DNA of 33,021 nucleotides from a virus. The stretch lies in the IMG/VR virus record IMGVR_UViG_3300021379_002056, positions 1 to 33,021 of that record; one strand, written 5' to 3'. This document shows, in pieces, positions 2,184 to 19,951 of this stretch (the first letter of the stretch is position 1; each line of letters opens with the position of its first letter). The notes below the pieces were generated by a model. The model was not told the DNA's origin and did no database searches. It was given only the letters and a program-made list of their open reading frames with translations. The position numbers were made by a program, and so were the translations under genes.

Positions 2184-2349
2184 TCAAGAGCTATACCATG
2201 CCGCCCGAAGGGCGCCGGAACTGCTCGATACTCTGCAAATCATCGATACGGAGTGCCGCGGACATCTCAAGCACGATGGCAAGCGGACTGCGGATGAGCT
2301 TGCCGAAGACATCCGTCGCCTGTGTTGGGAGGAACTCAGCCAGCACTGA
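2149..2349 (+). CDS. small conserved phage protein, function unknown
   Basis: A 66-residue protein starting MKVKLIFNLPHDQELYHAA. It resembles a common group of small phage proteins that begin with a short beta strand (MKaxLxFxLPxDQ), followed by helices and ending in a 'LRxLxxEEL'-like helix; here RRLCWEEL. Function is unknown as far as I recall. I chose the ATG at 2149 over an in-frame upstream start at 2128 because the conserved part begins here. It overlaps the upstream gene by 35 bp and runs 14 bp into the 3' end of the convergent integrase gene, so there is no room for a terminator between them. Confidence 0.65.
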   Translation: MKVKLIFNLPHDQELYHAARRAPELLDTLQIIDTECRGHLKHDGKRTADELAEDIRRLCWEELSQH

Positions 2350-3508: not shown

Positions 3509-3555
3509 AGCCGATGGCGGGACTCGAACCCGCGACCTACAATTTACGAAACTGC
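3509..3555 (-). other. attP core: 3' half of a tRNA-Thr(CGU) gene
   Basis: Read on the minus strand, this block folds as the 3' half of a tRNA. It has an anticodon stem GCAGT/ATTGT (two G-U pairs), loop TTCGTAA with anticodon CGT (Thr), variable loop AGGTC, T-arm GCGGG-TTCGAGT-CCCGC, the 3' acceptor strand CATCGGC and discriminator T. No matching 5' acceptor strand (GCCGATG) or D-arm lies upstream, so this is not a functional tRNA. It is the part a phage carries to rebuild the host gene after integration. Position beside the integrase and between direct repeats supports attP. The exact identity block could be shorter, because the wobble pairs in the anticodon stem may mark where phage sequence begins. 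Confidence 0.88.
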
Positions 3556-6982: not shown

Positions 6983-6997
6983 GTTGCGATACGCAAC
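6983..6997. promoter_or_regulatory. operator-like palindrome (copy 1)
   Basis: GTTGCG-ATA-CGCAAC is a perfect inverted repeat in the 125-bp gap before the SSB-like gene. It is the best-formed of six related sites found upstream of genes in this window. I see no convincing -10 element at the right distance here, so it may be an operator for a promoter I cannot read. Confidence 0.65.
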
Positions 6998-7045
6998 ACG
7001 ACACTCTGCCCGTCAAAAGCACGGGAGAACTGAAAAAAAAACAAG

Positions 7046-7333
7046 ATGAGCAATTACACGCATGATGTCGTGGCGACGGTTGGTGAATACACCAACAACG
7101 CCGGTGAAACGAAGAAGCGATTCCAAAAATGTGGGATCGTCCTGACCAACGAAGATGGGCGCATGTCCATCAAACTCGAGAGCATCCCAGTCACTCCAGA
7201 CTGGAGCGGTTGGCTCTCGATCTACCCGAAGCGCGACCGAGAGCAAGCAGGTGCAGGGGATCCGTTCCCGGCTCCAGCCTCGAAACCCGCTTCTCGAGGC
7301 CCAATACCGCAAGAGGACAACATCCCCTGGTAG
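7046..7333 (+). CDS. SSB-like phage protein with acidic IPW tail
   Basis: A 95-residue protein. Residues 8-70 alternate beta strands (VATVGEYTNNAGETKKRFQKCG, RMSIKLESIPVTPDWSGWLSIYP), a pattern I recall from small phage proteins proposed to bind nucleic acid. A disordered Pro/Ala/Ser linker follows, then the end EDNIPW, which closely resembles the acidic tip of bacterial SSB (DDDIPF type) used to recruit partner proteins. Together these suggest a minimal single-strand-binding protein. It sits just after the replication genes and behind operator copy 1. The OB fold itself cannot be confirmed by eye, and the GGGAG at 7022-7026 is too far upstream to be its ribosome site. Confidence 0.5.
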   Translation: MSNYTHDVVATVGEYTNNAGETKKRFQKCGIVLTNEDGRMSIKLESIPVTPDWSGWLSIYPKRDREQAGAGDPFPAPASKPASRGPIPQEDNIPW

Positions 7334-7344
7334 CCCTGGTAGTG

Positions 7345-7443
7345 ATGAGGGAATTCATCGTTGAGATGCTGGCGGCACTGGTGTTTGCCAGTGCCGGCAG
7401 CTTTCTCGCGTTGCTGTTCATGCATTGGTTTCTATCCGCATGA
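7345..7443 (+). CDS. 32-residue single-span membrane peptide
   Basis: A short frame starting MREFIVEMLAALVFASAG and ending FMHWFLSA. Nearly all of it is one hydrophobic transmembrane helix. It begins 11 bp after the SSB-like stop, and its TGA overlaps the ATG of the next gene as ATGA, which supports it being translated. GTG at 7342 is an alternative start. Function unknown; inner-membrane location is inferred. Confidence 0.5.
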   Translation: MREFIVEMLAALVFASAGSFLALLFMHWFLSA

Positions 7444-7889
7444 AGAACATAGTCCAATTGACCTCCTGTGAAATGGTCATGGCAGCAACCGCTGGCATCA
7501 TGCGCCAAGTGGAAAACGTCAAAGCAAAGAGACGACCATATTACTTGGCAGGCAACCAACGCGATTGGCAGATACACGTAGAGGGGTGCTTAGGCGAATT
7601 CGCGTTAGCTAAGTTCTTAGGCATCCACTGGACAGGCAAGGGAGCATTAAGAGCACCAGATGTAGGAACGGTAGACGTCCGCACTGCCGGAAAAAATCAC
7701 TACAAACTAATCCTGCACCCTGACGATGACGATGATCGTCCATTCTGGTTGCTGTGCGGAGTCAACGGGCGATACAGCGTCAAGGGGTGGTTGCGTGCGG
7801 GAGACGGCAAGAAAAAAGAATATTGGAAGGATCCTGCTGACCGGGGGGCGTCTTGGTATGTCCCTCAATCTGTATTAAACAAGCCATGA
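7440..7889 (+). CDS. conserved phage protein, possible nuclease-like fold
   Basis: A 149-residue protein with order VEGCLGEFALAKFLGI (Gly52-Glu53), then APDVG...VDVRT (78-82), then LILHPDDDDDRPFWLL and a closing WYVPQSVL. The GE...D...VxVR...LI order recalls a degenerate PD-(D/E)XK-type core found in phage hypothetical proteins, but the usual ExK lysine is replaced by Arg81, so catalysis is doubtful. The five-Asp run at 95-99 is notable. ATGA overlaps join it to genes on both sides. I would call it a conserved hypothetical with a tentative fold. Confidence 0.5.
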   Translation: MKNIVQLTSCEMVMAATAGIMRQVENVKAKRRPYYLAGNQRDWQIHVEGCLGEFALAKFLGIHWTGKGALRAPDVGTVDVRTAGKNHYKLILHPDDDDDRPFWLLCGVNGRYSVKGWLRAGDGKKKEYWKDPADRGASWYVPQSVLNKP

Positions 7890-8356
7890 TCAATAACTTC
7901 AACGAGGACTGCGAGGGTCCAATGATCCAACTCGACGGGTGCGATGACTGCATCATCGGCGTGACTATGACCGAGGAAGGCGAAGCGATCGTCTACAATT
8001 GGGATTGTATGATCGAGCAGAACATGAGTCACGGCATGGACTGGGAGGAAGCCGTCGAGTATTTCGACTACAACCAATCTTGCCTTGCCACCACCGGCGC
8101 CACCTCACCCATTTGGGTCGAGATGTGGCAGCGGCCGGGACAGTATTACGAGCATCAGGTCAAGGCACTCATCGAACTGTTCTATCGACACGTTGGCTCC
8201 AAGGACGGTGAGTGGATCCTCGAGCAGCAGGGCTTCCACCATGAACTCATGGCTACCCTGCAGCCGAAGACTCAAAAACTCGAGGGCATGGAGTATGCCC
8301 AGGCTCTCGATGCCTTCGAGGCTGAACTTTGCCCCCTTCCACCAACATCAGCATGA
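7886..8356 (+). CDS. conserved phage hypothetical protein
   Basis: A 156-residue acidic protein. The N-terminal half (LDGCDDCIIGV, IVYNWDCMIEQ, MDWEEAVEYFDYNQSC) follows a pattern recalled from a widespread phage family in which a short beta hairpin 'DGxDDAIxGV' precedes 'MsxEEAxEyfeyN' and a Gly-Pro turn. No biochemical function is known to me. It sits between two ATGA-coupled genes, with a start (7886) overlapping the previous stop. Confidence 0.6.
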   Translation: MINNFNEDCEGPMIQLDGCDDCIIGVTMTEEGEAIVYNWDCMIEQNMSHGMDWEEAVEYFDYNQSCLATTGATSPIWVEMWQRPGQYYEHQVKALIELFYRHVGSKDGEWILEQQGFHHELMATLQPKTQKLEGMEYAQALDAFEAELCPLPPTSA

Positions 8357-8631
8357 TCGAGGGGAAGCAACCATGGCGCATTGAATGGTCTGACCGACTG
8401 CTCACCTTCAACATCGAGTCTGTTGCCGTCATCAGGGAGCCGCACGACGACTGGCAGCAGGTCGGCGCAGTCCACGGGACTCACCGCGAAGCAGTCGACT
8501 GGGCGAAGAAGTGGTTGGCCCAACACCCCGAGCTTGAGAAGAAGTATGAAGCTCGAAGCAGGAACAGGAAGATGGACTGGTGGGAAGAGCCAGACCTTGG
8601 CCACCAGAATACGATTTTAACGAAAAAGTGA
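8353..8631 (+). CDS. hypothetical protein, 92 residues
   Basis: Starts at an ATGA overlap (8353). Contains a beta-rich N-terminal half (WRIEWSDRLLTFNIESVAVIRE) and a helix (HREAVDWAKKWLAQHPELEKKY) before a basic, Trp-containing tail. Family not recognised. It is the last gene of the coupled run that begins at 7345. Confidence 0.5.
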   Translation: MIEGKQPWRIEWSDRLLTFNIESVAVIREPHDDWQQVGAVHGTHREAVDWAKKWLAQHPELEKKYEARSRNRKMDWWEEPDLGHQNTILTKK

Positions 8632-8745
8632 AGATGGCGCTGTAATGCGATTTAAGAGGGGGTGGGCCTGCTCTGAAGGGGATCTTACCTTAAAAGGCTA
8701 AAACCCCTCCTAATGGACACGACAGAGGTGCTCAGAGGCATTTGT

Positions 8746-8753
8746 GCTATAAT
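8746..8753 (+). promoter_or_regulatory. extended -10 promoter for the TerS-like gene
   Basis: TGCTATAAT (8745-8753) holds a perfect TATAAT (8748-8753) preceded by TGn, an extended -10 of the housekeeping type. The region 17 bp upstream (GAGGTG) is not a good -35, which the extended -10 can offset. It lies 33 bp before the TerS-like ATG in the 154-bp gap after 8631, the best promoter readable here. No operator palindrome accompanies it. Confidence 0.6.
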
Positions 8754-8785
8754 GTAGGGTTGAATTGCATACGGAATGAAGAATT

Positions 8786-9436
8786 ATGGCAGAAAATGGA
8801 CAAAATCCGCATGAAATCAGGGAGGTGGATGATCAGACTCTGCCTCCGGCCGATCTCCCCCACGCCGACCCCGCCCCGGCACCGGCACCGCTTGACAATG
8901 TAAACACCAAATCCGTCGAGGTCGAGGTCGTCCCTCCGCGGAAGAAGAGGTTGTCCCCCGGGTTGACTGCTCGCCACAAGCGGCAGGCTGCACAAGGCGT
9001 AGAGACTCGAAACAAGGTTTGGGAGCTTTGCGTCCGGCGCGGCATGTCGATCAGCAAAGCGGCCGAGCAGATCGGACTGACGTATAGTGCCGTCTTTCAA
9101 GCCTATGCGAAACGCCTCGATGAGATGCTTGAAGCGGAAAAGCCAGCCGGCCCGAATGCTGACCGGCTAAGGCTCGAGCTAGACAATCATCTCCGCGATG
9201 CCCTGGAATCGAGCAAAGAGCAAATGGACGAGGATCCTCGTTACGCTGCGATCATGCTCAAGACCCTCGAACAGCTTGCCAAGCTGCACGGTCTCGACAA
9301 GCCCCAGGAGCAGAAGCCCGAGACTTCGATCACGGCCGGGGAGATTAGTGACAAGCTCAAGCTGATGTCGCCAGCCTTAGCCGGCCGGAGGGAGCAACTC
9401 GAACGGATCCTCGAGTCCCGGGAGCGTAACAAATAA
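8786..9436 (+). CDS. terminase small subunit-like protein
   Basis: A 216-residue protein. The first 50 residues are Pro/Ala-rich and disordered. Residues about 65-115 contain a helix-turn-helix (VWELCVRRGMSISKAAEQIGLTYSAVFQAY), and the rest is a helical oligomerisation-like region with KLHGLDKP, a motif I associate with small terminases ('akLhGLdkP'). The small subunit would recognise the packaging site. The expected large-subunit gene does not follow it, which weakens the call; a DNA-binding regulator is the main alternative. It begins a transcription unit with its own extended -10 promoter. Confidence 0.55.
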   Translation: MAENGQNPHEIREVDDQTLPPADLPHADPAPAPAPLDNVNTKSVEVEVVPPRKKRLSPGLTARHKRQAAQGVETRNKVWELCVRRGMSISKAAEQIGLTYSAVFQAYAKRLDEMLEAEKPAGPNADRLRLELDNHLRDALESSKEQMDEDPRYAAIMLKTLEQLAKLHGLDKPQEQKPETSITAGEISDKLKLMSPALAGRREQLERILESRERNK

Positions 9437-9533
9437 TCATGCCCTGGCTTTTGGCTGGGATTTCCCTTTAACACTGGGGGTGTAGGCCGGTCTTTTGAGG
9501 CACATAATGTCTCGCGTAACCTTTTGTTTTTAT

Positions 9534-9562
9534 GTTGCGTTATGCAACAGTTTTGGTATATT
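9534..9562 (+). promoter_or_regulatory. operator palindrome overlapping a promoter (copy 2)
   Basis: GTTGCG-TTA-TGCAAC (9534-9548) is an inverted repeat with one mismatch. Its TTGCGT (9535-9540) sits 16 bp before TATATT (9557-9562), which is preceded by TG-G, so the left arm can act as -35 of an extended -10 promoter. A protein bound to the palindrome would block polymerase. The downstream start at 9615 heads a run of three small genes. The rest of the 178-bp gap (9437-9614) shows only a short GGCGG/CCGCC hairpin near 9570. Confidence 0.65.
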
Positions 9563-9614
9563 CCTGTGGCGGGATGATCCGCCCAAGCAAACGAAAAAGA
9601 AAGGAACCAAGATA

Positions 9615-9827
9615 ATGGACCACCACATCACCATCACCCTCAATACAGATAACGCAGCCTTCGACAACGTGGGGGAGATACCCCGAATCCTCGAGCGAGC
9701 GGTAGCCGAGATCAAGGAGGAGTTAGCACTATCCGAGGGGCTCAATGATACCGCCCACGGCACGTTCCCACTGAAAGACCTCAACGGGAACAAGGTGGGG
9801 AGCGTAGCCATCCTCTCGGAGAACTAA
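9615..9827 (+). CDS. small conserved phage protein (ITLNTDNAAF type)
   Basis: A 70-residue protein. Its sequence (ITITLNTDNAAFDN, IPRILERAVAEIKE, LKDLNGNKVGSVAI) closely follows a small protein family I recall from actinobacteriophages: beta strand with TDNAAF, one helix, then a 'DxNGNxVG' hairpin. Function unknown. The leader AGAAAGGAACC (9598-9608), nearly identical before the next two genes, gives a good ribosome site. I start at 9615; the frame stays open upstream to a TTG at 9495 but runs through the promoter/operator. Confidence 0.7.
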   Translation: MDHHITITLNTDNAAFDNVGEIPRILERAVAEIKEELALSEGLNDTAHGTFPLKDLNGNKVGSVAILSEN

Positions 9828-9852
9828 GAACAAACCAGAAAGGAACCACATC

Positions 9853-10056
9853 ATGAACAGCAATATTCGTTACCCCGAGGTTACCGTCACCCTTATGGGG
9901 GAGGACGGGAATGCATTCAACCTTCTTGGAATCACTATGCGCGCCCTGCGCCGTCATCGTGTTCCCGAGGAGGAGGTGCGTGAGTTTTACGAGGAGGCTA
10001 CCGCGGGTGATTACACCCACCTTCTCACCACAATCTCACGATGGGTAGTGGTTTAG
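9853..10056 (+). CDS. small conserved phage protein (YPEVTVTLMGEDGNAF type)
   Basis: A 67-residue protein: YPEVTVTLMGEDGNAFNLLG, then a helix (TMRALRRHRVPEEEVREFYEEA) and GDYTHLLTTISRWVVV. This layout strongly matches a very common small family of actinobacteriophage and other phage genomes ('YPNVxVxLxGxDGNAFxIxGxVxRALRRAG'). Its function is unknown to me. Leader AGAAAGGAACC at 9837-9847. It follows another actinophage-like family member 25 bp upstream, so the pair may have moved together. Confidence 0.75.
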   Translation: MNSNIRYPEVTVTLMGEDGNAFNLLGITMRALRRHRVPEEEVREFYEEATAGDYTHLLTTISRWVVV

Positions 10057-10085
10057 ACTAGCCAGCAACCAGAAAGGAACACACC

Positions 10086-10385
10086 ATGAACATCACAGCA
10101 ATCCGAGCCTTTGACCCTACCGGGTCGAGGTTCGCCGTCACGACTGACCGTGTGTATGCTGCTACTGTAGCTCACACGGTATCCTTCACCTACATGGGGA
10201 CTTATAACCCCATGTTCTTCCACGATCACTTGCGTGGGGTCATCGGCCGGGTGGCGCCGATCAAGGACCGGGGAGGGAACAACACCATGCTCTCGCTCGC
10301 AGCCTACGCCCTGGAGCGTTACGAGGCAGGCGACTACGAGGAGATGGTGGACAATCGTTGGTCCCGCCCAAAAACAAGTGATTAG
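10086..10385 (+). CDS. hypothetical protein, 99 residues
   Basis: Begins MNITAIRAFDPTGSRFAVTTD and ends in a short Asp-rich helix (YEAGDYEEMVDNRW). Mostly beta strands in the first half. No family recognised. It shares the AGAAAGGAAC leader (10071-10080) with the two genes upstream. Its stop codon overlaps the left edge of an operator palindrome, so the next gene can be transcribed independently. Confidence 0.55.
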   Translation: MNITAIRAFDPTGSRFAVTTDRVYAATVAHTVSFTYMGTYNPMFFHDHLRGVIGRVAPIKDRGGNNTMLSLAAYALERYEAGDYEEMVDNRWSRPKTSD

Positions 10386-10416
10386 GTGTTGCGATACGCA
10401 TCACCTGAGCGATAAT
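10384..10416 (+). promoter_or_regulatory. operator palindrome overlapping a promoter (copy 3)
   Basis: GTTGCG-ATA-CGCATC (10388-10402) sits inside a longer inverted repeat with outer arms AGGTG (10384-10388) and CACCT (10402-10406). TTGCGA (10389-10394) lies 16 bp before GATAAT (10411-10416), a good -10. The spacing matches copy 2 exactly, supporting a regulated promoter for the DUF932 gene at 10466. The 80-bp gap holds no other feature. Confidence 0.65.
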
Positions 10417-10465
10417 CCCAATGCCCTCCGCACCCGCGGGGGGCTAACTACAAACGAAAGAAACA

Positions 10466-11206
10466 ATGAGTAATGCAAAGCTACTGCTCCACTGCGGGGC
10501 AGAACAAACCACGCGAGAGGACGTCTGGAACGTCACCACGCCCGAGCCGACCCGCACCCACTACCCTCTGCCTCACCGGGATCTTGTCGGGGAAGTCGAG
10601 GACATGCTGACTGGCGCCGGCTTCGAGATTGGCGACCAGAGACACGCCTTGTCGCATGAAGGCGCCCGATACTTCGGCACCTTCGCCGTCTCGCTGCCCG
10701 ATGCCCCCTCGAAGGACTATTCGTGGGTCGTCGGCCTCCGAAACAGCCACGACAAGTCGCTGCCGGCCGGATTGGTCGCCGGCACTCGTGTCTTCGTCTG
10801 CGACAACCTCGCCTTCACCGGCGAGATCAAGATCAGCAGGAAGCATACCCGCTTCGCTGCCCGGGATCTCAGTCACATGACTGCTCGAGCGGTTGGGCAG
10901 CTTGGTGAGCGGTTCCACAGGCTCGATCGGCAGATCGAAGCGTATCAGGAAGCTGAGATCAACGACAGGACGGCGCATGACGTCATCATTCGCGCCATTG
11001 ACTGCCGTGCGGTCAACCCGACTGCGGTCAAGGGAGTGTTGAAGGAGTGGCGCCAGCCGAGTCATGAGGACTTTGAGCCTCGCACTGCCTGGAGCCTGTT
11101 CAACGCCTTCACCGAGAGGATGAAGGGCGGCAACCCAAACACCACGCTGCGGAGGACACAAGCTCTTCACGGTCTCTTCGATGGGGTTGTGGGACTGGCT
11201 AACTGA
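10466..11206 (+). CDS. DUF932 family protein
   Basis: A 246-residue protein of the DUF932 type found in phages and plasmids. The diagnostic stretch is WVVGLRNSHDKSLPAGLVAG, then FVCDNLAF and the following SRKHT (about residues 90-132): 'GLRNSxDKSxxxxxxxGxxVFVCDN'. Upstream is the GxEExxHALSxxGARxFGTF-like part (QRHALSHEGARYFGTFAV). The C-terminal half is helical. The molecular function is not established to my knowledge. It is transcribed from the palindrome-overlapping promoter and ends 1 bp before the serine recombinase start. Confidence 0.8.
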   Translation: MSNAKLLLHCGAEQTTREDVWNVTTPEPTRTHYPLPHRDLVGEVEDMLTGAGFEIGDQRHALSHEGARYFGTFAVSLPDAPSKDYSWVVGLRNSHDKSLPAGLVAGTRVFVCDNLAFTGEIKISRKHTRFAARDLSHMTARAVGQLGERFHRLDRQIEAYQEAEINDRTAHDVIIRAIDCRAVNPTAVKGVLKEWRQPSHEDFEPRTAWSLFNAFTERMKGGNPNTTLRRTQALHGLFDGVVGLAN

Positions 11207-11207
11207 C

Positions 11208-11843
11208 ATGAAGACCAGAACACCTGTGGCGATCCTTGTCAGGGTCTCCACCAAGAAGCAGGAAACTGACCGTCAGATTTCAGAACTGCGCCTTGTGGCT
11301 ACCTCCCGTGACTGGGAGGTGGTCGAGGTCGTGGAAGAGGCTGGCGTGTCGGGGTCATCGGACGAGCGTCCCGGTCTAGAGCGCATCCTTGAGTTGGCGC
11401 AGGCGAAGAAGATCAAGAAGGTGATGGTGCATGAGGTATCGAGGGTGGCGCGGAAGAACAGCATTGCGCACCATTTTCTCGAAGACCTGCACGATGCTGG
11501 GGTCTCGCTTTACTGGCACTCCCAGGGGATCGAGACACTGCTTGCCAACGGCAAGGTCTCGCCTGCTGCTGCGATCATGTTCGCCCTGCTCTCCGAGATG
11601 GCGAGATACGAGAACGAAGAGCGTCGAGAACGCATCTTGAGCGGCCTCGAGGAAGCACGCCGGAAGGGTGTGAAGTTGGGTCGTCCGAAGGGGTCTGGTT
11701 TGGCTCCCGGCGACTTGGCAAAGAAGCATCCGAAGGTGGTCAAATACCTTGAGTCTGGCGATCACAGTTTGCGTGAGATCGGCCGGCTTGCTGGTGTTAG
11801 CGCGATGACAGTTAAGAGGGTGAAGGAGGACATAGCAGCATGA
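11208..11843 (+). CDS. small serine recombinase (resolvase/invertase type)
   Basis: A 211-residue serine recombinase. The catalytic domain begins VAILVRVSTKKQETDRQISEL with the nucleophile Ser in VRVST, then GVSGSSDERPGLERIL, VHEVSRVARKN with the conserved S-R, and LLSEMARYENEERRERILSGL leading to the long E helix. LGRPKGS precedes a C-terminal helix-turn-helix (SLREIGRLAGVSAMTVKRV). Small resolvases and invertases of this length resolve dimers or flip DNA. I start at the ATG at 11208. Its substrate is not evident. A second recombinase type beside a tyrosine integrase is unusual for a phage this size. Confidence 0.9.
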   Translation: MKTRTPVAILVRVSTKKQETDRQISELRLVATSRDWEVVEVVEEAGVSGSSDERPGLERILELAQAKKIKKVMVHEVSRVARKNSIAHHFLEDLHDAGVSLYWHSQGIETLLANGKVSPAAAIMFALLSEMARYENEERRERILSGLEEARRKGVKLGRPKGSGLAPGDLAKKHPKVVKYLESGDHSLREIGRLAGVSAMTVKRVKEDIAA

Positions 11844-12208
11844 ACATAGCTACTGACATCAAGATCGACGGCAAATTGATCACCGTCTACGGGCATCGGG
11901 TCGGTGATCAGCTTGAATTCCTGTGTGCGGAGGATGAAAACGGCGATAGCGTCGATCTGAATTTCACTGCGACTGATCTGGCGATCGAAGCGTTGTGGAA
12001 TGAGGTGGAGACATTGAAGAGCATTTACGGTGGCGCCCCTGACGACAAGCATATTTGCGAGCGTTGCGGGGACCGTTGTGAGGATCATCGTCGTGTTCAC
12101 GCCGGCCGGATGGACCCGTGGGACAAGTTCTGGTCTTTGCGTCTTTGTGGGGCTTGTGGCGTCAAACTGGAGGAGTGGGCGCGATGTGGTGCCAAAAGTG
12201 TGACCTAA
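11840..12208 (+). CDS. hypothetical protein with a zinc-ribbon-like C-terminus
   Basis: A 122-residue protein, ATGA-coupled to the serine recombinase. The first 65 residues are beta-rich (KIDGKLITVYGHRV). The C-terminal part has ICERCGDRC (CxxCxxxC) and LRLCGACGVKLEEW (CxxC), enough cysteines for one zinc site. A nucleic-acid or protein-contact role is possible. Family not recognised. Confidence 0.55.
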   Translation: MNIATDIKIDGKLITVYGHRVGDQLEFLCAEDENGDSVDLNFTATDLAIEALWNEVETLKSIYGGAPDDKHICERCGDRCEDHRRVHAGRMDPWDKFWSLRLCGACGVKLEEWARCGAKSVT

Positions 12209-12230
12209 ATAGGTGGTTGCGTAACGCAAG
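12203..12230 (+). promoter_or_regulatory. double palindrome including operator copy 4
   Basis: ACCTA-AA-TAGGT (12203-12214) is a perfect inverted repeat spanning the stop of the zinc-ribbon gene. Directly after it, GTTGCG-TAA-CGCAAG (12216-12230) is operator copy 4, with a perfect TTGCG/CGCAA core. A -10 is not clear: GCTAAT (12238-12243) lies 15 bp after TTGCGT. Confidence 0.55.
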
Positions 12231-12270
12231 TCATTAAGCTAATCTCGTTTGGGTAGTCTCATGACCCATA

Positions 12271-12319
12271 GCGGCCGGTTGGAGTTCTGGTGCTGGTTCT
12301 CCAGCCGGTCGCTTTTTTT
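12271..12319 (+). terminator. rho-independent terminator
   Basis: Arms GCGGCCGGTTGGAG (12271-12284) and CTCCAGCCGGTCGC (12299-12312) pair over 14 bp with two G-U pairs and no mismatch, followed at once by seven T. A strong stop for the DUF932-recombinase unit. Only 12 bp separate it from the next ATG, so that gene needs read-through or a promoter inside the hairpin region. Confidence 0.9.
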
Positions 12320-12331
12320 AAATTTGCCCTT

Positions 12332-12643
12332 ATGACAAAAACTGGTGGTAATAAGCGTGAGGCCCAGGCGAGGGAGTATGTGGCTAGTAAGTTGAGCGGG
12401 ACTCAACATACTGGTGAGAACCAGTCCCGTGGAGCCACTGCGGGAGAGCTATCCAAGCTCTTTGCCGGCATGAATCCTGACGTGGTTTTGGTTTGCGCCT
12501 GGGTCTATGGTGACTCGATCAAGCTACCGGAGGGGGTGTCGTGGGACTCAATAGCGGATCTCTGTTACCGGCACGGGATCGGGTTCGAGGAGTTGGCTAG
12601 GATCGTGCAGTATGTCGCAGAGAACCGGGATTTACTCGAATGA
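12332..12643 (+). CDS. hypothetical protein, 103 residues
   Basis: Starts MTKTGGNKREAQAREYVASK; a charged first half is followed by a folded-looking helical part (ELSKLFAGMNPDVVLVCAWVYG, WDSIADLCYRHGIGFEELARIV). No family recognised. I start at the ATG after the terminator; the frame is open further upstream but would read through the hairpin. No clear ribosome site precedes it, so translation may be weak or leaderless. Confidence 0.5.
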   Translation: MTKTGGNKREAQAREYVASKLSGTQHTGENQSRGATAGELSKLFAGMNPDVVLVCAWVYGDSIKLPEGVSWDSIADLCYRHGIGFEELARIVQYVAENRDLLE

Positions 12644-12672
12644 AACCAAAAATGCTCATTAATGAGTGAGGA

Positions 12673-12927
12673 ATGACACAATACCCGCAACCACCGCAAA
12701 CCTGCCGCCTTACCGTATGCGGATGTCATCTTGAGGACGGAACGGAAATTAAGCCGGATCACAACCTCGAATGGGTGGGCGATGTCCAGATACGATATTG
12801 CCCCGACAAGGACAACTTGTTGAAACTCTACGCTGGGGATTCCTTCACGTGGCAAGAGGTTTCCTGCATTGAGTTCTTGGGGCGACCCGATAAGGCTTTC
12901 TCGTTGAGTGAAGCAGCGAACGCATGA
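12673..12927 (+). CDS. hypothetical protein, 84 residues
   Basis: Begins MTQYPQPPQTCRLTVCGCHL with four Cys in the whole chain, mostly beta strands (VQIRYCPDKDNLLKLYAG) and an acidic/aromatic middle (FTWQEVSCIEFLG). A GTGAGGA ribosome-like site precedes the ATG. Its end overlaps the next gene as ATGA. Family not recognised. Confidence 0.45.
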   Translation: MTQYPQPPQTCRLTVCGCHLEDGTEIKPDHNLEWVGDVQIRYCPDKDNLLKLYAGDSFTWQEVSCIEFLGRPDKAFSLSEAANA

Positions 12928-13211
12928 GCGCGGCCATCGACAACGAGCGGAGCGAGGCAGGCGGTAGTTCTGCTTACACGGTGCGGGTAACGCGGCTGTC
13001 CGTCCTTCCGCCCAAGGAGTCGCTGTTTAGCGAACGATGCACTCACGTCACAATCGTTGACGAGGCAGCAGGCGAATACGTCGAGATTGAGCAGCAGTCC
13101 GCGCATGTGGACGTGAAACCGCAGAAAATCGACGTGACCCCGGAAGAGTGGCCTGCGCTCAAGCGAGCGGTCTCGAGGTTGCTCGCGGATATTCAGAATA
13201 ACGACCAATGA
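12924..13211 (+). CDS. hypothetical protein, 95 residues
   Basis: A beta-rich protein (SAYTVRVTRLSVLPPKESLF, HVTIVDEAAGEYVEIEQQ) ending with a helix (PEEWPALKRAVSRLLADIQ). The VTPEEWPALKRAV tail looks like a small phage domain ending in 'W..l..ai..ll', but I cannot name it. Start and stop both overlap neighbours as ATGA. Confidence 0.5.
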   Translation: MSAAIDNERSEAGGSSAYTVRVTRLSVLPPKESLFSERCTHVTIVDEAAGEYVEIEQQSAHVDVKPQKIDVTPEEWPALKRAVSRLLADIQNNDQ

Positions 13212-13522
13212 TGAGCGACCCGAAAAGCGACCTGTTAATCCAAGCTATTGCAAATCTAGACCGAGAGCATAGATCGTCAATGTCCCTCTGGACTGCTTAT
13301 TGGGAAGCCAGAAATGCACTACGAGATGTGGCGCTAGAACGGTATCTGGGAGTCCACCACGAATATCTGGAACGGGGAGAAGATGCTTGGCTACCCAGTG
13401 AGGGATTCAAGGAAATCTCAGCAGATGAAACTATGTCGATGCGACTTGTTAAAAACTTAGGGCCTGCGGATTGTTCGAGATTTGACGACGATGAACATAA
13501 GCGGAAAAAACCACCGGCATGA
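13208..13522 (+). CDS. hypothetical protein, 104 residues
   Basis: Begins MMSDPKSDLLIQAIANL; the second Met (13211) is an equally possible start. The sequence is helical (SLWTAYWEARNALRDVALERYL) with a charged, Lys-rich tail. Family not recognised. The TGA at 13520-13522 lies two bases from the convergent stop of the SNF2 helicase, so no terminator separates the two. Confidence 0.5.
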   Translation: MMSDPKSDLLIQAIANLDREHRSSMSLWTAYWEARNALRDVALERYLGVHHEYLERGEDAWLPSEGFKEISADETMSMRLVKNLGPADCSRFDDDEHKRKKPPA

Positions 13523-13524
13523 AG

Positions 13525-14928
13525 TCATAGCGCCTCCTCGATCACCGTCTCTTTGCGTTCCAGAAGGTCAAGCATCCCCTCATCCAGAGAGTCCTCGAGG
13601 ATGAACCTGTGGATGGTCACTGGTTTTGTTTGCCCGATTCGCCAGATTCGATCTTCGGTCTGTTGCATATTCCCGGGGGACCAGTCGAGTTCTGCGAGTA
13701 TGAGGTGGCGTGCTGCAGTGAGTGTGACTCCGCTCGAGGCAGTGCCGATGGTTGCGAGGAAGATGAATGCGCCACCTGTTTGAAACCTGTCGACGGCTTC
13801 CTGGCGTTGTTTCGGGTTGGTTTGTTGACTGATCGAGGCGACTCGGAACTTCCTTCCCTTGAAATGGGCGTAGAGGGTGCGGTAGATCTGCTGGTGGATG
13901 CAATAGACCACGACTGGTTCGCCCTTTTTGCGCAATTGCTCGACTAGAGCGATGACTCTTGGCAGCTTCGCTTCAGCGGCGAGGATCCTTGCCGGGTGTA
14001 AGTTCCGGTTAGCCTCGTTTTGCAGCCTGTTTGCGTCCGAAAGAAGTGGTCTCTTGTGGACGATCATCTTGCATTTTGCGATCTGCCGGTAAAGGTCATT
14101 GAGGTCTCGCTTGTAACGATCTGCTGTTTCTTTGTATTCTGAAATTTTTTGTCTCGTCTCGTCGTTTGGAGTAATACGGATGGTTTCTTGCGTCTTTGGC
14201 GGCAGGTTAGTGAGGCATTTTGCTTTAGTGCGTCGAATTAGGCATGTTGCGTAAAGTTTGTCCTGCAATTCGTCGAGGTTTGTGGCGCCTTCCGCGATCC
14301 ATTCGCCATTCCACCATCGGCCCTTGCAGTATCGCTTGGTAAAATCGATGAATGACCCGAATGCTCCCGGCCGGATTGCATTGATAGCGGTAAAGATCTC
14401 GACTGGTCGGTTGAGGATTGGGGTGCCAGTGAGAAAATACCGGACTCGAGCCTCGAGCGAGAGGGCTATTTGAGTTCTTTGGGCCTCGTTGTTCTTTATG
14501 TAGTGCGACTCATCGAAGACGATGACCGGGAAATACGTTTGCACGAGCTTCCTGAGTTTCTCGTAGTTGATGAAGAGAGGTAGTGGTAGTTCTGGCAAGG
14601 CCCAGGTGGTCCATTCTCTTTTCCAATTTTCGACCAATGATGCCGGCGAAACGATCAGGACTGGTTCCGGTGGATTGAGAGTGTTGATGGCAGCTATTGT
14701 GACAGCTGTTTTCCCGAGACCCATTTCGTCGGCGTTGAGGGAGCCTCCGTGAAAGGCGTCTTCGACCATGAGTTGCGCTGCGGCGACTTGGAATGGCAGC
14801 AAAGTGGGTCCACTCTGGTTGGTTTTGATCTCGAGTCCTTGTTTTGGCTCGATCCCCTTGCCTCGATCGGCTCTTCCTTTGCGTTCTGCGATGACTGGCG
14901 AGTGAAGCGAGAGGGTAGTTTGCTGCAT
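13525..14928 (-). CDS. SNF2/SMARCAL-type helicase
   Basis: A 467-residue superfamily-2 ATPase. Motifs: Q-like LLPFQVAAAQ (43-52), Walker A DEMGLGKT (67-74), DESH box (139-142, FDESHYIKN), motif III LTGTPILNRP (166-175), then the C-terminal half with VVVYCIHQQIYRTL, LATIGTASSGVTLT and QTEDRIWRIGQTKPV, the SNF2 'Q..DR.hRiGQ' motif. Such proteins move on double-stranded DNA, remodelling or annealing it. It lacks accessory domains and is near minimal length. I start at the ATG at 14928; an upstream TTG at 14952 lies inside the operator palindrome. It is inverted relative to its neighbours and convergent with 13208. Confidence 0.9.
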   Translation of the reverse strand: MQQTTLSLHSPVIAERKGRADRGKGIEPKQGLEIKTNQSGPTLLPFQVAAAQLMVEDAFHGGSLNADEMGLGKTAVTIAAINTLNPPEPVLIVSPASLVENWKREWTTWALPELPLPLFINYEKLRKLVQTYFPVIVFDESHYIKNNEAQRTQIALSLEARVRYFLTGTPILNRPVEIFTAINAIRPGAFGSFIDFTKRYCKGRWWNGEWIAEGATNLDELQDKLYATCLIRRTKAKCLTNLPPKTQETIRITPNDETRQKISEYKETADRYKRDLNDLYRQIAKCKMIVHKRPLLSDANRLQNEANRNLHPARILAAEAKLPRVIALVEQLRKKGEPVVVYCIHQQIYRTLYAHFKGRKFRVASISQQTNPKQRQEAVDRFQTGGAFIFLATIGTASSGVTLTAARHLILAELDWSPGNMQQTEDRIWRIGQTKPVTIHRFILEDSLDEGMLDLLERKETVIEEAL

Positions 14929-14938
14929 TTCGCACTGT

Positions 14939-15003
14939 GTTGCGCATCGCAATTTCCGCGACTGGAAAATTGAGCAGTTAGGGGCTAACTGGGCGATTTT
15001 TTT
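14939..15003. promoter_or_regulatory. divergent control region with operator copy 5
   Basis: This gap separates the SNF2 gene (-) from the portal (+). GTTGCG-CAT-CGCAAT (14939-14953) is operator copy 5. TTTCC (14953-14957) and GGAAA (14964-14968) form a second inverted repeat, and CAGTTAG-GGG-CTAACTG (14975-14991) a third, followed by GGCGA and a run of nine T. The last may act as a terminator or an mRNA-leader hairpin. I cannot assign a clear -10 on either strand. Confidence 0.5.
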
Positions 15004-15039
15004 TTGCCATTTCCTTGCCCGAGCGAGAGTTTTCCGATT

Positions 15040-17145
15040 GTGGAGATATTAGGATCAAAGCAGCAGATTCAAGCTCGTCGTGCTGAGAAGCTCAATCGAG
15101 CCGGATCGGTGCGAAGAAAGCGATCGAAAACTGCACTCGAGGACGGTCTGAACGACTCGAAGGCGTTGTGGTTGATCCAGCATTGCAAAAGCCGGTGGGA
15201 GGCATTGCACGGTGCGCTGAACAGCTACCGGGAGATCCGTGAGGTTGCTGAAAAGCAGATGCGTGAAGATTTTTCGTGGCGATTGCAGAAAGAAAGTCGG
15301 CACCCTGACGTTGCCGAGACCATCTTCGAGCGAAACAACGACACGCTTAATATCGTCGGCGCCTTTAGGGATTTTCTGTCTGCTCAAGCAAAGAACGACA
15401 TTTTCGGCGGGAAACCGTGGTTTGCGGTGCAACCGGAAGGTCGCAGCGATGCGGAATTATCTGAGAAGTTACAAAAGCATTTCGCCTTTAAGCTCAAGAC
15501 GAACAACCTCGAGAACACTTACCTCGAGGCGATTGATCTTGCTGCTGGGCTAGGGGAGTCGTTCATTAAGACGACCTGGCGCACGGAGACCGACACTTTT
15601 GAACGTGCCGTCCTTGCGCTGCATGTGAACGGCGAACCATTCGTGTTGCCGAGTGGCGAATATGTCTACTCGACTGATGAGATAGTCGATGAGCGAATGC
15701 AGCCGGCCGAGGAAGGTGCTGAGTTTGAAACTCCGAAGACTCCGCGGATTTATGCGGCCAAGGCGCCTGATTTCGACCTGCCGAAGAATGGCACCTTCGA
15801 GATGCTTTACGAGGAGGCAACGACTATCATCGAGAATGGCCTCGAGGCGAAATGCCTCTACTACCGTGACGTCGCATTTGACCCGACTGCGCCAGAATTA
15901 GACTTGGTGCATACCGATTTCTTCAACCAGTTCACTTTGGGTCTGCAGGATGCCAAGGGGCAATACGAACTGACACATGAGCAATACGAGACGCTTCGGA
16001 CCACGGTCGAGGAAGGGTCTGACATGGTTGAGTCTGGCAGGCCCAGGGGGGCGGTAGACGAGGACGTCGAGCGTGATGACTATTTTGACGATCAGGGTCG
16101 AGCCAATCTGCCAATCCATCTTGTAGAGGGTTACGTGCGCTGCGATCCATTCGGTGACGGCAAACTCCGCCGCATCTATATCGTCTTTAACCCTGCCTCT
16201 GAGACGATTCTGTTCTGCGACTACCTCTCGAACATTACTCCGGATGGGTCATTGCCTGTTTCGATTCACCGGATCTACCCTGTCTCCGGCAGGCTTTACG
16301 GTTGCGGCATGTTCGAGCGTTACGGCTACTTGCAAGAGTATTCGGACGACTTGTTTAACCAGATTTCATGGCGCAACCGGTGTCACTCCAACCCCATCAT
16401 CGCTTACGATCCTCACTCCCTCGAGGAAGAGGAAGAGGATGCGAAGTTCATTTTTGAACCGGGGAAGACATGGAAACTGAAGGAAGGGGCGAAGCTCGAG
16501 GATGCCATCCAGATCGCGCAGCTTCCGGACATGGATGCTCGGACCATGGAACTCTTGCAGATGTCTATCCAGTTTGGGCAAATGCGGACAGGCATCTCCA
16601 GTGCTTCTCAAGGCGAGATGTCTAGCCTTCCTCAAAACAACACGGCTACCGGCGTGCAAGCTATGATGTCGAGGGCAGCTACGCTCCTCAAAGAGCCGAT
16701 CGACTGTTTGAAGAAGTCTTTGACCTGCGATTTGAGATACGCAATCAAGCTCACCTACGCTCGATTCGACCAAAAAGAGGCATTTGTCCACGGGGAAGGG
16801 GAGGCGCAGGAACTCATTGCTCTCACTCCCGAGGATATTGCCAATCTCGAGATGGATGTTCGTTTGTTGATGACTCAAGCGCAAAACACCGAGAAGCTCG
16901 AGAATTCCCAAGTCGCCATCCAACTGCTGATGCAATACACGCAGTTGCCCGAGCATGAGAAAGCGGCCGGCCGGGATCTCTTCCTGCAGGCATTGAAGGC
17001 ACTTAACTTTGATAATGCGGACACGATTATCCGCGAAGCAATCACCGACCCGAATCAACTCCTCGAGATCCTACCTCCGGATCTGCAGCCACTCTTCGCT
17101 CAATTTTTGCAGTCCATGCAAACACCGGCAGAATCACCGCAATGA
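15040..17145 (+). CDS. portal protein
   Basis: A long phage portal (701 residues from this GTG; up to 713 from a TTG at 15004). Portals form the dodecameric ring at one capsid vertex through which DNA is packaged and ejected. Portal-like features: EIREVAEKQMREDF early; a middle with DFFNQFTLG and RRIYIVFNPASETILFCDY; RLYGCGMFERYGYLQEYSDDLFNQI; then GISSASQGEMSSLPQNNTATGVQAMMSRA and a helical tail, the 'A.G...qA...' type seen in podovirus portals. The TTG start lies inside a T-run and has no ribosome site, so I prefer the GTG, also weak. ATGA overlap with the holin candidate. No large terminase lies directly before it, unlike in most phages. Confidence 0.8.
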   Translation: MEILGSKQQIQARRAEKLNRAGSVRRKRSKTALEDGLNDSKALWLIQHCKSRWEALHGALNSYREIREVAEKQMREDFSWRLQKESRHPDVAETIFERNNDTLNIVGAFRDFLSAQAKNDIFGGKPWFAVQPEGRSDAELSEKLQKHFAFKLKTNNLENTYLEAIDLAAGLGESFIKTTWRTETDTFERAVLALHVNGEPFVLPSGEYVYSTDEIVDERMQPAEEGAEFETPKTPRIYAAKAPDFDLPKNGTFEMLYEEATTIIENGLEAKCLYYRDVAFDPTAPELDLVHTDFFNQFTLGLQDAKGQYELTHEQYETLRTTVEEGSDMVESGRPRGAVDEDVERDDYFDDQGRANLPIHLVEGYVRCDPFGDGKLRRIYIVFNPASETILFCDYLSNITPDGSLPVSIHRIYPVSGRLYGCGMFERYGYLQEYSDDLFNQISWRNRCHSNPIIAYDPHSLEEEEEDAKFIFEPGKTWKLKEGAKLEDAIQIAQLPDMDARTMELLQMSIQFGQMRTGISSASQGEMSSLPQNNTATGVQAMMSRAATLLKEPIDCLKKSLTCDLRYAIKLTYARFDQKEAFVHGEGEAQELIALTPEDIANLEMDVRLLMTQAQNTEKLENSQVAIQLLMQYTQLPEHEKAAGRDLFLQALKALNFDNADTIIREAITDPNQLLEILPPDLQPLFAQFLQSMQTPAESPQ

Positions 17146-17414
17146 TCATCACCTATAAACCAACTAACTCAATAAAACCCATGATTGAAAAACTTCTTAA
17201 AGGCGACTTTCTCGACGGCAAGAAAACATACATCTCGCTGCTTGTTGCAGCGGCCGGCCTCGTTGCAGGTCGTTTTGGCATCGACCTTCCGAAGCAGGAG
17301 GTTAATGGCATCATCGAGATCGTGAGATTGAACTGGGAAGACATCACTGTTCTTGCCGGCCTCGTTGCTGCTGCCTGGGCGCGATTGGTGACGAAGGGTC
17401 CGCAAAAAAAGTGA
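17142..17414 (+). CDS. putative holin (two membrane spans)
   Basis: A 90-residue protein with two hydrophobic helices, about 29-45 (TYISLLVAAAGLVAGRFG) and 66-83 (EDITVLAGLVAAAWARLV), an N-terminal basic stretch and a Lys-rich tail. Two-span proteins of this size next to an endolysin are typical class II holins, which puncture the inner membrane at lysis. The ATG overlaps the portal stop as ATGA; an internal Met at 17181 might give a shorter form. Function is inferred from topology and the endolysin 68 bp downstream. The 67-bp gap 17415-17481 shows nothing. Confidence 0.65.
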   Translation: MIITYKPTNSIKPMIEKLLKGDFLDGKKTYISLLVAAAGLVAGRFGIDLPKQEVNGIIEIVRLNWEDITVLAGLVAAAWARLVTKGPQKK

Positions 17415-17481
17415 AACCTCCCTTTGTCGAAGCGCAAAACAAGGGGAGTTTGAAACCGCGCCCATTTTACCGCAAGCGTCG

Positions 17482-18105
17482 ATGAAGAGTTTTCCTGATC
17501 GGTTTGCTATCTCTATGCTGCAGTTATCTTTGACTGCGTTGGGGCAGGACGTTGGTGCCGTGGACGGTATCATGGGGAATAAGACCCGTGCCGCATTACG
17601 CGCGCTCCTGGGCGATAAACCCCTCCCGTCGCCGGTCGTAAAGAGCGAGGATCCGAGTCTGAGGTGGCCGCTCGAGAGTGAGCTTGATGAGTTCTACGGT
17701 GCTCGAGGTGACCACTCCCAACTGTCGCTGCTGAAGCTCCCGCGGCCGATGCGGCTTTATTCGCCCGAAGGTCCGATCATCGAGATGCTGTATGCTCATA
17801 ATAAGGTCCACAAGCCGATGTATCGATGCCTCTCAAAGATGCTCCAGATGCCTGATGCGTTTATCAAAAAGCATGAGCTAAACGTAACAGCAGGCGTCTA
17901 CAATGATCGACTAAAAATCGGCGGCAGTGGCCCCTCTACACATAGTTGGGCATGTGCAATCGACATCTCTCCTCGCCTCAATGGCTATGGGAGCCATCCT
18001 GATTTGCCCCAAGAAATCGTAGATATTTGGAAAGCCGAAGGCGCAGAGTGGGGCGGAGATTGGTCTACCCCCGATGGGATGCACTTCCAATTTTGCAGAA
18101 GCTGA
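17482..18105 (+). CDS. endolysin: peptidoglycan-binding domain plus M15 peptidase
   Basis: A 207-residue lysis enzyme. Residues about 10-42 match a PG_binding_1 domain (LQLSLTALGQDVGAVDGI and KTRAAL). Residues about 135-207 are an M15 (VanY/carboxypeptidase-type) zinc peptidase, cutting the D-Ala-containing peptide of peptidoglycan. Zinc ligands: His154 and Asp161 in STHSWACAID (the SxHxxGxAxD box with Ala157 replacing Gly) and His201 in DGMHFQF. GGDWSTPDGMHF is the common M15 ending. No signal peptide or transmembrane helix is seen, so release by a holin is expected. The stop overlaps the next ATG as TGATG. Confidence 0.9.
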   Translation: MKSFPDRFAISMLQLSLTALGQDVGAVDGIMGNKTRAALRALLGDKPLPSPVVKSEDPSLRWPLESELDEFYGARGDHSQLSLLKLPRPMRLYSPEGPIIEMLYAHNKVHKPMYRCLSKMLQMPDAFIKKHELNVTAGVYNDRLKIGGSGPSTHSWACAIDISPRLNGYGSHPDLPQEIVDIWKAEGAEWGGDWSTPDGMHFQFCRS

Positions 18106-18428
18106 TGACGGTCGACGCTCTAACTTTGATGATTGTGATCATGGGCGGCCTGACTGTCGGGTTGTCAATTTATGTTGCCCTCAGATTTTGGTGGCATCAC
18201 CGCTTTTTGAAGTCCGGTGCGCGTAAATTGACCCGTGCTCTAGCGGGGATGCTGATTGGAGAGGCGATTATAGGTTTGGTGACTTTGACTTTCGGTATAC
18301 TAGAGTGGACCGGTGCCTTGCCGAGTATAGCAATTGAAATGCAGTCCGCTCTTCGAGTAATAGCATTCTCAGCAACGTCGATAACCACTCTGCATTTATA
18401 TTTAGTGGTCGAAGATTTACACCGATGA
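18105..18428 (+). CDS. three-span membrane protein of the lysis cassette
   Basis: A 107-residue protein starting at the ATG in TGATG. Three hydrophobic segments: about 5-30 (LTLMIVIMGGLTVGLSIYVALRF), 45-68 (AGMLIGEAIIGLVTLTFGIL) and 80-100 (RVIAFSATSITTLHLYLVV). Three spans recall class I holins, so it may be a second holin or an antiholin beside the two-span candidate. It lies between endolysin and the next gene with overlaps at both ends. Family not recognised. Confidence 0.6.
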   Translation: MTVDALTLMIVIMGGLTVGLSIYVALRFWWHHRFLKSGARKLTRALAGMLIGEAIIGLVTLTFGILEWTGALPSIAIEMQSALRVIAFSATSITTLHLYLVVEDLHR

Positions 18429-18733
18429 TAGCGACAAATCTAGCCCTCCCCTCTCAGTGGGGCGAATACGGATTAGCCGGCCTCGTTATAGGCTCCCTTT
18501 TTTTGCTTGTATACTCATTTTTGTCTACCTTGCGTTCAAAGGACTCCAGTCATCAAAAATTTATCAAAGAACTGCTCGATGACGATAGAATCGAGCGCAG
18601 AGAGGATCGACGGGAGCATAGGGAGATCAACAACAAATTAGCTTCCGCGATCGAAGATTTGACCGAAGAGATTCGGCAGCATAACACGCTGCTCCCCCCG
18701 CATGGCATTGAGGGACATCATAAAAGTGGATAA
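18425..18733 (+). CDS. putative inner-membrane spanin-like protein
   Basis: A 102-residue protein with one N-terminal membrane span (YGLAGLVIGSLFLLVYSFL, about 15-33) followed by a long charged helix (KFIKELLDDDRIERREDRREHREI) and a short tail. A single span followed by a coiled coil is the i-spanin (Rz-like) plan, disrupting the outer membrane in Gram-negative hosts. A partner lipoprotein (Rz1-like) was not found. Alternatives are a BhlA/UviB-like holin. ATGA overlap with the gene upstream marks it as the end of the lysis operon. Confidence 0.5.
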   Translation: MIATNLALPSQWGEYGLAGLVIGSLFLLVYSFLSTLRSKDSSHQKFIKELLDDDRIERREDRREHREINNKLASAIEDLTEEIRQHNTLLPPHGIEGHHKSG

Positions 18734-18745
18734 AATCGGCCACTT

Positions 18746-18816
18746 AGCACAAGTGCTGCTTGACTTTTGTGCCATGGTGTAAACGTCCCCTGATTTTAGT
18801 GTGTGGAAACACACAC
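18746..18816. promoter_or_regulatory. inverted repeats before the scaffold gene
   Basis: AGCAC-AA-GTGCT (18746-18757) is a perfect inverted repeat. A second, GTGTGTG-GAAA-CACACAC (18799-18816), is a 7-bp stem with a GNRA-type loop; it contains the only usable GTG start of the scaffold frame. No -10 or -35 is convincing, although TTGACT occurs at 18760-18765. Confidence 0.5.
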
Positions 18817-19945
18817 ATCAGAGGAGGCAAGTGAACAACTGCCACCAGAAGAGACGGTCCCTACCGAAGCAGCGGAGGCTAGTGAGCAACTGCCCGTCCT
18901 TGTTGACGAAGGGAAGCCCGAGGACGCACCTCCAACTGATCCACTGGACCAGTTAGGGTCGGACGTCCTCGATGATCTATCGGCCGAGGATCTTGACGCT
19001 TTGGCGTCTGGTGATCCTGCTGCAATCGCTCGCATTTTGGGTGAGGAAGCACCGGCAGAAGATCAACCACGCAACGCAGAAGAAGCAGACACTCAGTCCC
19101 AGGCCGAAGAAGGTGAAGAACCTCCGGAAGCTGAAGCGACTGAAAGCGGCCCGACCCGCGTGAGTCTCAAGAGCCTGCCTGTCGAAGATCGCAAGAAGAC
19201 TGCAACTGCAGTTACTCTGGTTAGAGACGGGGTATATGAGAATCTCGCGGAAGCGTTAGCCGACGTCTACGGACTTAACAGACAATCTGCGCAGTCCTCG
19301 ACCGAGACGGCTGAAGGATCAGATGCGGAGGATAGCGAGTCTGAGGAGACTGTAGCGGAGGAACTGCCAGAAGCGGTAGCTGAAATCCAATCTCGAATCG
19401 ACCAGTTGGTTGAGGAGCGTAAAACTGCGCTTTCAGAATTCGAGACAGATAAAGCGATCGAAATAGGTGATCAAATTGCCGAGCTTCGGCTCGAAGCATT
19501 TGTCGCCAAACAACAGGCAGAAGCGCAGGCGCAATCGCAGGAACAACTAGCTCAAGAAGAGGCGACTTACATCGACAAGGCACGGGACCAATATCCCGAC
19601 CTGCTCGATGAAGAGAGCACATTCTTTGAGGAGGCTATCCGTGAGCGTGCATACCGGGAGGCAACTGATCCTGATTTCTTCGACAAGCCTGACTGGCCGC
19701 TCCGATTAGCGGAGACGGTCAACGAGCGAATCGGAGGAGCAAAGCCAACCGCAACTACGCAAGAGACGACCTACGCCAACCAAGGCAAGGCGCCCCCCGC
19801 TCGCCCACCGGGACAGGTGGCAACTGGCGGGAATGGTATGCCGGTTCTCTCCGCGGAAGACGCCATGGCAAAGATCGAAGCCGGCGAAGTCGATGCTGAA
19901 TCCATCCTCGAGGAACTGACTCGTCGGGAGATGAGCGTTGCGTAA
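18803..19945 (+). CDS. putative scaffolding protein
   Basis: A 380-residue, highly acidic and low-complexity protein between portal/lysis genes and the capsid, the usual place of a scaffold that shapes the procapsid and is then lost. The first 120 residues are Glu/Pro/Ala/Ser-rich (EEASEQLPPEETV, DEGKPEDAPPTDP). Later parts are helical and coil-prone (RIDQLVEERKTALSEF, EAFVAKQQAEAQAQSQEQLAQ), and the tail includes KIEAGEVDAESILEELTRRE. The start is doubtful. GTG 18803 is the first in-frame start after a stop at 18797, has no ribosome site and lies in a hairpin. A GAGGAGG at 18820-18826 would serve a GTG (18831) in the +1 frame, which closes after about 40 codons. Confidence 0.65.
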   Translation: METHTSEEASEQLPPEETVPTEAAEASEQLPVLVDEGKPEDAPPTDPLDQLGSDVLDDLSAEDLDALASGDPAAIARILGEEAPAEDQPRNAEEADTQSQAEEGEEPPEAEATESGPTRVSLKSLPVEDRKKTATAVTLVRDGVYENLAEALADVYGLNRQSAQSSTETAEGSDAEDSESEETVAEELPEAVAEIQSRIDQLVEERKTALSEFETDKAIEIGDQIAELRLEAFVAKQQAEAQAQSQEQLAQEEATYIDKARDQYPDLLDEESTFFEEAIRERAYREATDPDFFDKPDWPLRLAETVNERIGGAKPTATTQETTYANQGKAPPARPPGQVATGGNGMPVLSAEDAMAKIEAGEVDAESILEELTRREMSVA

Positions 19946-19951
19946 CGCAAT
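19937..19951. promoter_or_regulatory. operator-like palindrome (copy 6)
   Basis: GTTGCG-TAA-CGCAAT, with a perfect TTGCG/CGCAA core, overlaps the last codons and stop of the scaffold gene and lies 30 bp before the capsid ATG. It is the same motif as the early copies, which would put a late structural gene under the same DNA-binding factor. No clear -10 follows. Confidence 0.6.

Follow-up and report, generated by a model that had tools for sequence, protein, structure and literature searches.

Six dispersed TTGCG-N3-CGCAA palindromes in a fragment of a probably temperate phage: candidate operators of one phage regulator

Six copies of a short palindrome are scattered over 13 kb of a viral DNA fragment, which raises the question of whether they form a real set and, if so, what recognises them. 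The window, i.e., the whole stretch of DNA analysed here, spans the full 33,021 bases of its IMG/VR record, which represents a linear fragment of a genome. An earlier note had read the palindromes as dispersed operators of a repressor or of a late regulator with many targets.

The fragment and its palindromes

The window encodes RecT, exonuclease VIII, a DnaD-like loader, DnaB, a serine recombinase and an SNF2-like helicase, together with an SU10/P22-type portal, an endolysin, a scaffold-like protein, capsid and tail proteins, some of these being assigned by position; the gene of a large internal virion protein runs off the right end. No homologues of the capsid and portal proteins were found in GenBank phages, and a DUF932 protein has no close relatives in IMG/VR and only distant homologues in GenBank phages. 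The following genes and elements bear on the lifestyle of the phage and on possible regulators.

1980–2183 (+): HTH_17 protein, directly beside the integrase gene
2336–3427 (−): tyrosine integrase (Pfam PF00589, E 4e-13; phrog_1, E 2e-36), missed in the earlier note
about 3510–3555 (−): putative attP-like 3′ half of a tRNA gene, adjoining the integrase gene
11181–11843 (+): small serine recombinase (resolvase/invertase family), its gene flanked by two of the palindromes

Given the integrase and the attP-like tRNA fragment, the phage is most likely temperate, which in turn makes dispersed operators of one phage regulator plausible and a repressor expected. ARAGORN detected no complete tRNA, and the attP-like fragment, compared for host assignment with 388 Verrucomicrobiota genomes, gave no match.

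All six sites proposed earlier were found at their positions. The 15-mers given below comprise a 13-bp core plus one base per side, and the sites are named hereafter by the first base of the core (e.g., 6984).

6983–6997: GTTGCG-ATA-CGCAAC, exact; in the gap between a gene end at 6920 and a gene start at 7046
9534–9548: GTTGCG-TTA-TGCAAC, one mismatch (right arm TGCAA); symmetry extends out to TG...CA
10388–10402: GTTGCG-ATA-CGCATC, one mismatch (right arm CGCAT); symmetry extends out to GGTG...CACC
12216–12230: GTTGCG-TAA-CGCAAG, exact; shortly 3′ of the stop codon of gene 11840–12208 and 5′ of an intrinsic terminator
14939–14953: GTTGCG-CAT-CGCAAT, exact; divergent region between helicase (−) and portal (+) genes
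19937–19951: GTTGCG-TAA-CGCAAT, exact; end of the scaffold-like gene, with the major capsid gene 30 nt further on

Four sites (6984, 12217, 14940 and 19938) thus match TTGCG-N3-CGCAA exactly, and two (9535 and 10389) carry one mismatch. The four exact copies compare with 0.09 expected in the 33,021-base window from dinucleotide shuffles, none of 100 shuffles reaching four; with one mismatch allowed, there are eight matches versus 1.72 expected. The two further one-mismatch matches, at 6665 and 16732, are intragenic and within chance. Among all exact dyads with 5-bp arms and gaps of 0–10, TTGCG with a gap of 3 is the commonest in the window (simulated maxima of 2–3 copies), although a CTCGA arm with an 11-bp gap also reaches four copies once gaps above 10 are counted. 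A variant of the dyad with a 5-base spacer showed no excess.

A symmetric weight matrix separates the same six sites, which score 18.5–22.9, from the next matches (15.1, 15.0 and 12.4) and from the remainder (at most 9.4); 0.15 matches scoring at least 15 are expected by chance. When each site was left out of the matrix in turn, it still ranked between 2 and 6 within the 33 kb. Across the set the arms are constant and the 3-bp centre is variable, and the clearest asymmetry of the dyad is the base preceding the core, which is G at all six sites. The six palindromes are therefore confirmed as a real feature, and chance, or the capture by the phage of binding sites for a host regulator, is a very improbable explanation: it would agree with the motif not being conserved in relatives (see below), but it is opposed by the four exact copies against 0.09 expected and by the only known host of a relative, Verrucomicrobium sp. 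BvORR106, whose 8.7-Mb genome holds nine matches versus four for the control and hence no regulon.

The weaker matrix matches at 5585, 6665 and 16732 (15.0, 15.1 and 12.4, over a background of 9.4) lie inside genes and may be weak intragenic sites or chance. Another word stands out in the window, CTCGAG, which occurs 65 times where dinucleotides predict 12, irrespective of frame and in minus-strand genes as well; the excess is already present in its sub-words TCGAG and CTCGA, and most relatives have few or none.

Placement relative to genes, promoters and terminators

By our gene map, intergenic DNA makes up 6.4% of the central part of the window (3670–29171). Five of the six sites are wholly intergenic nonetheless, and the sixth (19938) shares 8 nt with the 3′ end of the gene before it, stop codon included. 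Equal frequency in coding or shuffled DNA had been named in advance as grounds for dropping the proposal; the sites exceed the shuffles and are mainly intergenic. The further claim that all of them lie immediately upstream of genes needs correcting: an intrinsic terminator intervenes between 12217, and likewise 14940, and the gene that follows on the right. Site 14940 has the start of the leftward helicase gene at about 11 bp and the portal gene at about 86 bp. The promoter- and terminator-like elements next to the sites are as follows.

9557–9562 (+): −10-like TATATT, 16 bp after TTGCGT
10411–10416 (+): −10-like GATAAT, 16 bp after TTGCGA
12270–12319 (+): strong intrinsic terminator (long stem with T run), separating site 12217 from the gene that follows; its ends were read from the fold
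14975–15009 (+): intrinsic terminator, CAGTTAG-GGG-CTAACTG followed by a T run, between site 14940 and the portal gene

Both 16-bp spacings, in which the left arm would form the −35 element, had been reported earlier and proved correct on re-checking. Counted over the set, a −10-like hexamer stands at promoter distance in the gene-ward direction at three of six sites and in the opposite direction at none, against a background of 5.8%, a statistic that is partly circular, as two of its three cases came from the earlier note. At 6984 and 19938 no recognisable promoter was found.

This arrangement can be read in terms of a positive regulator of middle or late genes, the portal and capsid modules included, acting as an activator or as a lambda Q-like DNA-binding antiterminator. 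Both the portal module and the gene of the major capsid protein do have a site in front of them, and the order of site, terminator and gene at 14940 and 12217 resembles the lambda late promoter. However, sites and start codons are anywhere from 30 to about 105 nt apart, where a late-gene activator site would be expected at a fixed distance; four sites precede small non-structural genes; and at 9535 and 10389 the left arm is positioned like a −35 element, so that a bound protein would sooner block transcription. We regard a positive regulator as unlikely, and return to it below with the evidence from a relative.

The palindromes might also act in the transcript, as a nut-like antitermination site, a processing site or a 5′ stabiliser. 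They could form a stem of 5–6 bp with a loop of 3 nt, G-U pairs occur at three places, and a second hairpin follows downstream at five of the six sites, two of these being the terminators. Yet it is the stem sequence that is constant and the loop that varies, compensatory changes are seen in none of the six pairs, and the leader at 19938 folds weakly, making an RNA element quite improbable. We favour a dimeric DNA-binding protein as the better fit, since the arms are invariant, the centre is variable and compensatory changes are absent.

Recombination sites of the serine recombinase encoded at 11181 were considered as well. Sites of serine recombinases have a longer layout with two half-sites. 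The symmetric 13-mer comes without such a layout, which makes this reading less likely.

Relatives and unrelated phages

Searches with the capsid, portal and virion proteins gathered 14 related records, among them a prophage of BvORR106 (G001); their shared proteins are only about 24–62% identical to those of the window. TTGCG-N3-CGCAA is above chance in none of the 14, which is literally the absence in relatives that the earlier note had said would count against a regulon. The relatives are distant, however, and one of them has a different dispersed dyad of its own, so that operators particular to each lineage account for the absence no less well than a lack of function.

The BvORR106 prophage contains GACTTGGCTCCAAGTC three times (21109, 33439 and 49002; L007–L009), and nowhere else in the 8.7-Mb BvORR106 genome does GACTTGG-N2-CCAAGTC occur. 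All three copies are followed at exactly 47 nt by an ATG, namely that of the scaffold gene, of the gene after portal and of a gene upstream of the giant virion protein. A second relative (G002) carries near-identical dyads at two homologous places (6591 and 28238), likewise at 47 nt. Among the three prophage sites, the spacer sequences differ. In the leaders of the prophage dyads we saw no obvious ribosome binding site, and two of the three have a −10-like hexamer (TACAAC, CACAAT) at −12. The constant 47 nt, the lack of an obvious ribosome binding site and the hexamers suggest that these are late promoters of leaderless transcripts, the regulator having its centre near −55, and the dyad looks like a phage-specific late-promoter element. 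This different dyad, at a fixed distance before three late-gene ATGs and with two of its places recurring in G002, speaks for a positive regulator at the window sites too. In the other relatives, no common palindrome was found upstream of capsid, portal or scaffold genes.

The same prophage has a short-unit array at 16496–16640 with six copies of the dyad GTCCG-N5-CGGAC, possibly an origin or iteron-like region. The 1182-aa open reading frame at 29450–33021 (−) of the window is the open-ended C-terminal part of the counterpart of a 4000-aa virion protein encoded by the prophage (35552–47554, −). The size of this protein, together with the 5-bp stem and 3-nt loop of the window palindromes, led us to consider N4-type hairpin promoters for a virion RNA polymerase. 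In Pfam searches the protein has ddrB-ParB, MuF_C and a sub-threshold ART-PolyVal match and no RNA polymerase, and the loop is unconserved; this candidate was rejected.

Outside these relatives, GTTGCGTAACGCAA was located at 119 loci when IMG/VR was scanned. In each of the 50 whole records inspected from these loci there are at most two exact sites, so the four in 33 kb are unusual. Within 300 bp of genes of XRE/CI-type repressors of unrelated phages, GTTGCGTWACGCAA occurs in 5 of the 119 matches versus 1.4 expected, a modest enrichment of a 13-mer that also occurs by chance. The loci concerned include the following.

L155: sites 987, 1027 and 1073 in the gap separating divergent XRE and cro-like genes, with a further site at 1314
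L069: sites 412 and 652 in the neighbourhood of an XRE gene
L110: sites 2323 and 2358, with an XRE gene on either side
L159: the same 13-mer in a CI/cro-like switch region

A second scan, with TGTTGCG-N3-CGCAACA, yielded four contigs from environmental relatives of Cluster O mycobacteriophages (G453–G456; L283–L292), each holding 19–42 TTGCR-N3-YGCAA dyads versus 0.2–0.35 expected; in the two contigs checked, many dyads lie 20–60 nt before start codons. G453 and G455 have proteins that are 100% identical and are apparently one phage; they share ParB-like and Ku proteins with G456, and G454 has less in common with them. The ParB-like and Ku proteins are 56% and 58% identical, respectively, to proteins of Cluster O mycobacteriophages. 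No protein homology between the window and these contigs was found.

The proposed regulator and known dispersed-site systems

The reading we prefer, to which we give about an even chance, takes the six sites as operators of a single dimeric regulator of the helix-turn-helix type that the phage itself encodes. An XRE/CI-type lysogeny repressor with its gene off the fragment is the most likely candidate. The sites are near-identical, far above chance and mainly non-coding, as repressor operators should be, and the phage shows the temperate traits, an integrase and an attP-like tRNA fragment, that such a repressor calls for. The 13-mer in CI/cro-like switch regions of unrelated phages and the three gene-ward −10-like hexamers also speak for it. 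Counting against a repressor, the motif is present in no relative, two sites precede terminators instead of promoters, and 6984 and 19938 lack a recognisable promoter. What stands of the original proposal is a non-random, intergenic, dyad-symmetric set in a phage that is most likely temperate.

The small protein encoded at 1980–2183, which had been put forward as the candidate regulator, is not supported in that role: it is of the HTH_17 class, adjoins the integrase gene and resembles an excisionase, and from this position it is probably an excisionase/directionality factor rather than a repressor. An XRE profile search of the window returned no XRE gene. The BvORR106 prophage carries its XRE repressor upstream of RecT, and since the fragment begins at the RecT gene, it is without the corresponding region. 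We hypothesize that an XRE/CI-type repressor, encoded in the part absent from the fragment, would bind the dyads as a dimer, blocking initiation where they overlap promoters (9535, 10389 and possibly 14940). At the promoterless sites (12217 and 19938) it may act as a roadblock, in the fashion of a stoperator, and the outcome would be silent early and late modules in the prophage.

More tentatively, we speculate that a temperate, probably Verrucomicrobia-infecting phage family, with capsid and portal unlike those in GenBank, regulates its modules via genome-wide dyads that are replaced wholesale between lineages, TTGCG-N3-CGCAA in the window versus GACTTGG-N2-CCAAGTC in the BvORR106 prophage, where it is placed 47 nt ahead of the ATGs of late genes. 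Phages other than actinophages would then possess a global regulator that switches its specificity. If a deep, unclassified lineage offered a clear case, it would, along with the exact-distance late dyads of a relative, demonstrate the repeated origin of genome-wide regulons in phages. The phylum concerned has seen hardly any phage genetics, and the sites supply short sequences on which its phages can be tested. No published account of the 13-mer TTGCG-N3-CGCAA was found in the literature.

The best descriptions of dispersed operators come from actinophages (Clusters A and O) and from a few other phages. Cluster O phage Corndog has 34 copies of TGTTCGG-N3-CCGAACA with no established function, rarely near promoters, and a transcriptional role was doubted by the authors (PMC4351075). 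Like these and the dyads of G453–G456 (consensus TGTTGCR-N3-YGCAACA), the window sites are short, dispersed dyads whose 3-bp centre is mostly A/T-rich and which often occupy small gaps ahead of genes; with the G453–G456 dyads they share the core TTGCR-N3-YGCAA, the outer TG...CA being weakly retained in the window. The window might hold dyads of the same many-copy type, bound by a dimeric phage protein with a perhaps non-transcriptional role in DNA organisation, partition, replication or recombination, given the same core and spacing in G453–G456 (19–42 copies) and the 34 copies in Cluster O proper (PMC4351075). We consider this rather unlikely, as the window has six copies only and its phage lacks protein homology to those actinophage-related contigs, and at least 10 of the 34 Corndog sites lie well inside genes, which the window sites avoid. 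The 17-bp Cluster O repeat itself (TGTTCGG/CCGAACA) has no match in the window, where six copies have 5–6 bp arms; the two have only the 3-bp spacing in common.

The operators and stoperators of Cluster A phages (L5, Bxb1) are dispersed, some in promoters and most not, with a consensus that differs among related phages (PMC6550527). The window sites are likewise dispersed in a temperate phage, some at promoters, but they are fewer, and they are dyads, unlike the asymmetric Cluster A stoperators with their one orientation relative to transcription; in the crystal structure of one Cluster A-type repressor, an asymmetric site is occupied by a monomer (PMC9283540). With the CI/cro-type operators of XRE repressors in L155, L069 and L110, the window has the 13-mer TTGCGTWACGCAA in common, although the sites there cluster at the repressor locus and those of the window are spread over 13 kb of other genes.
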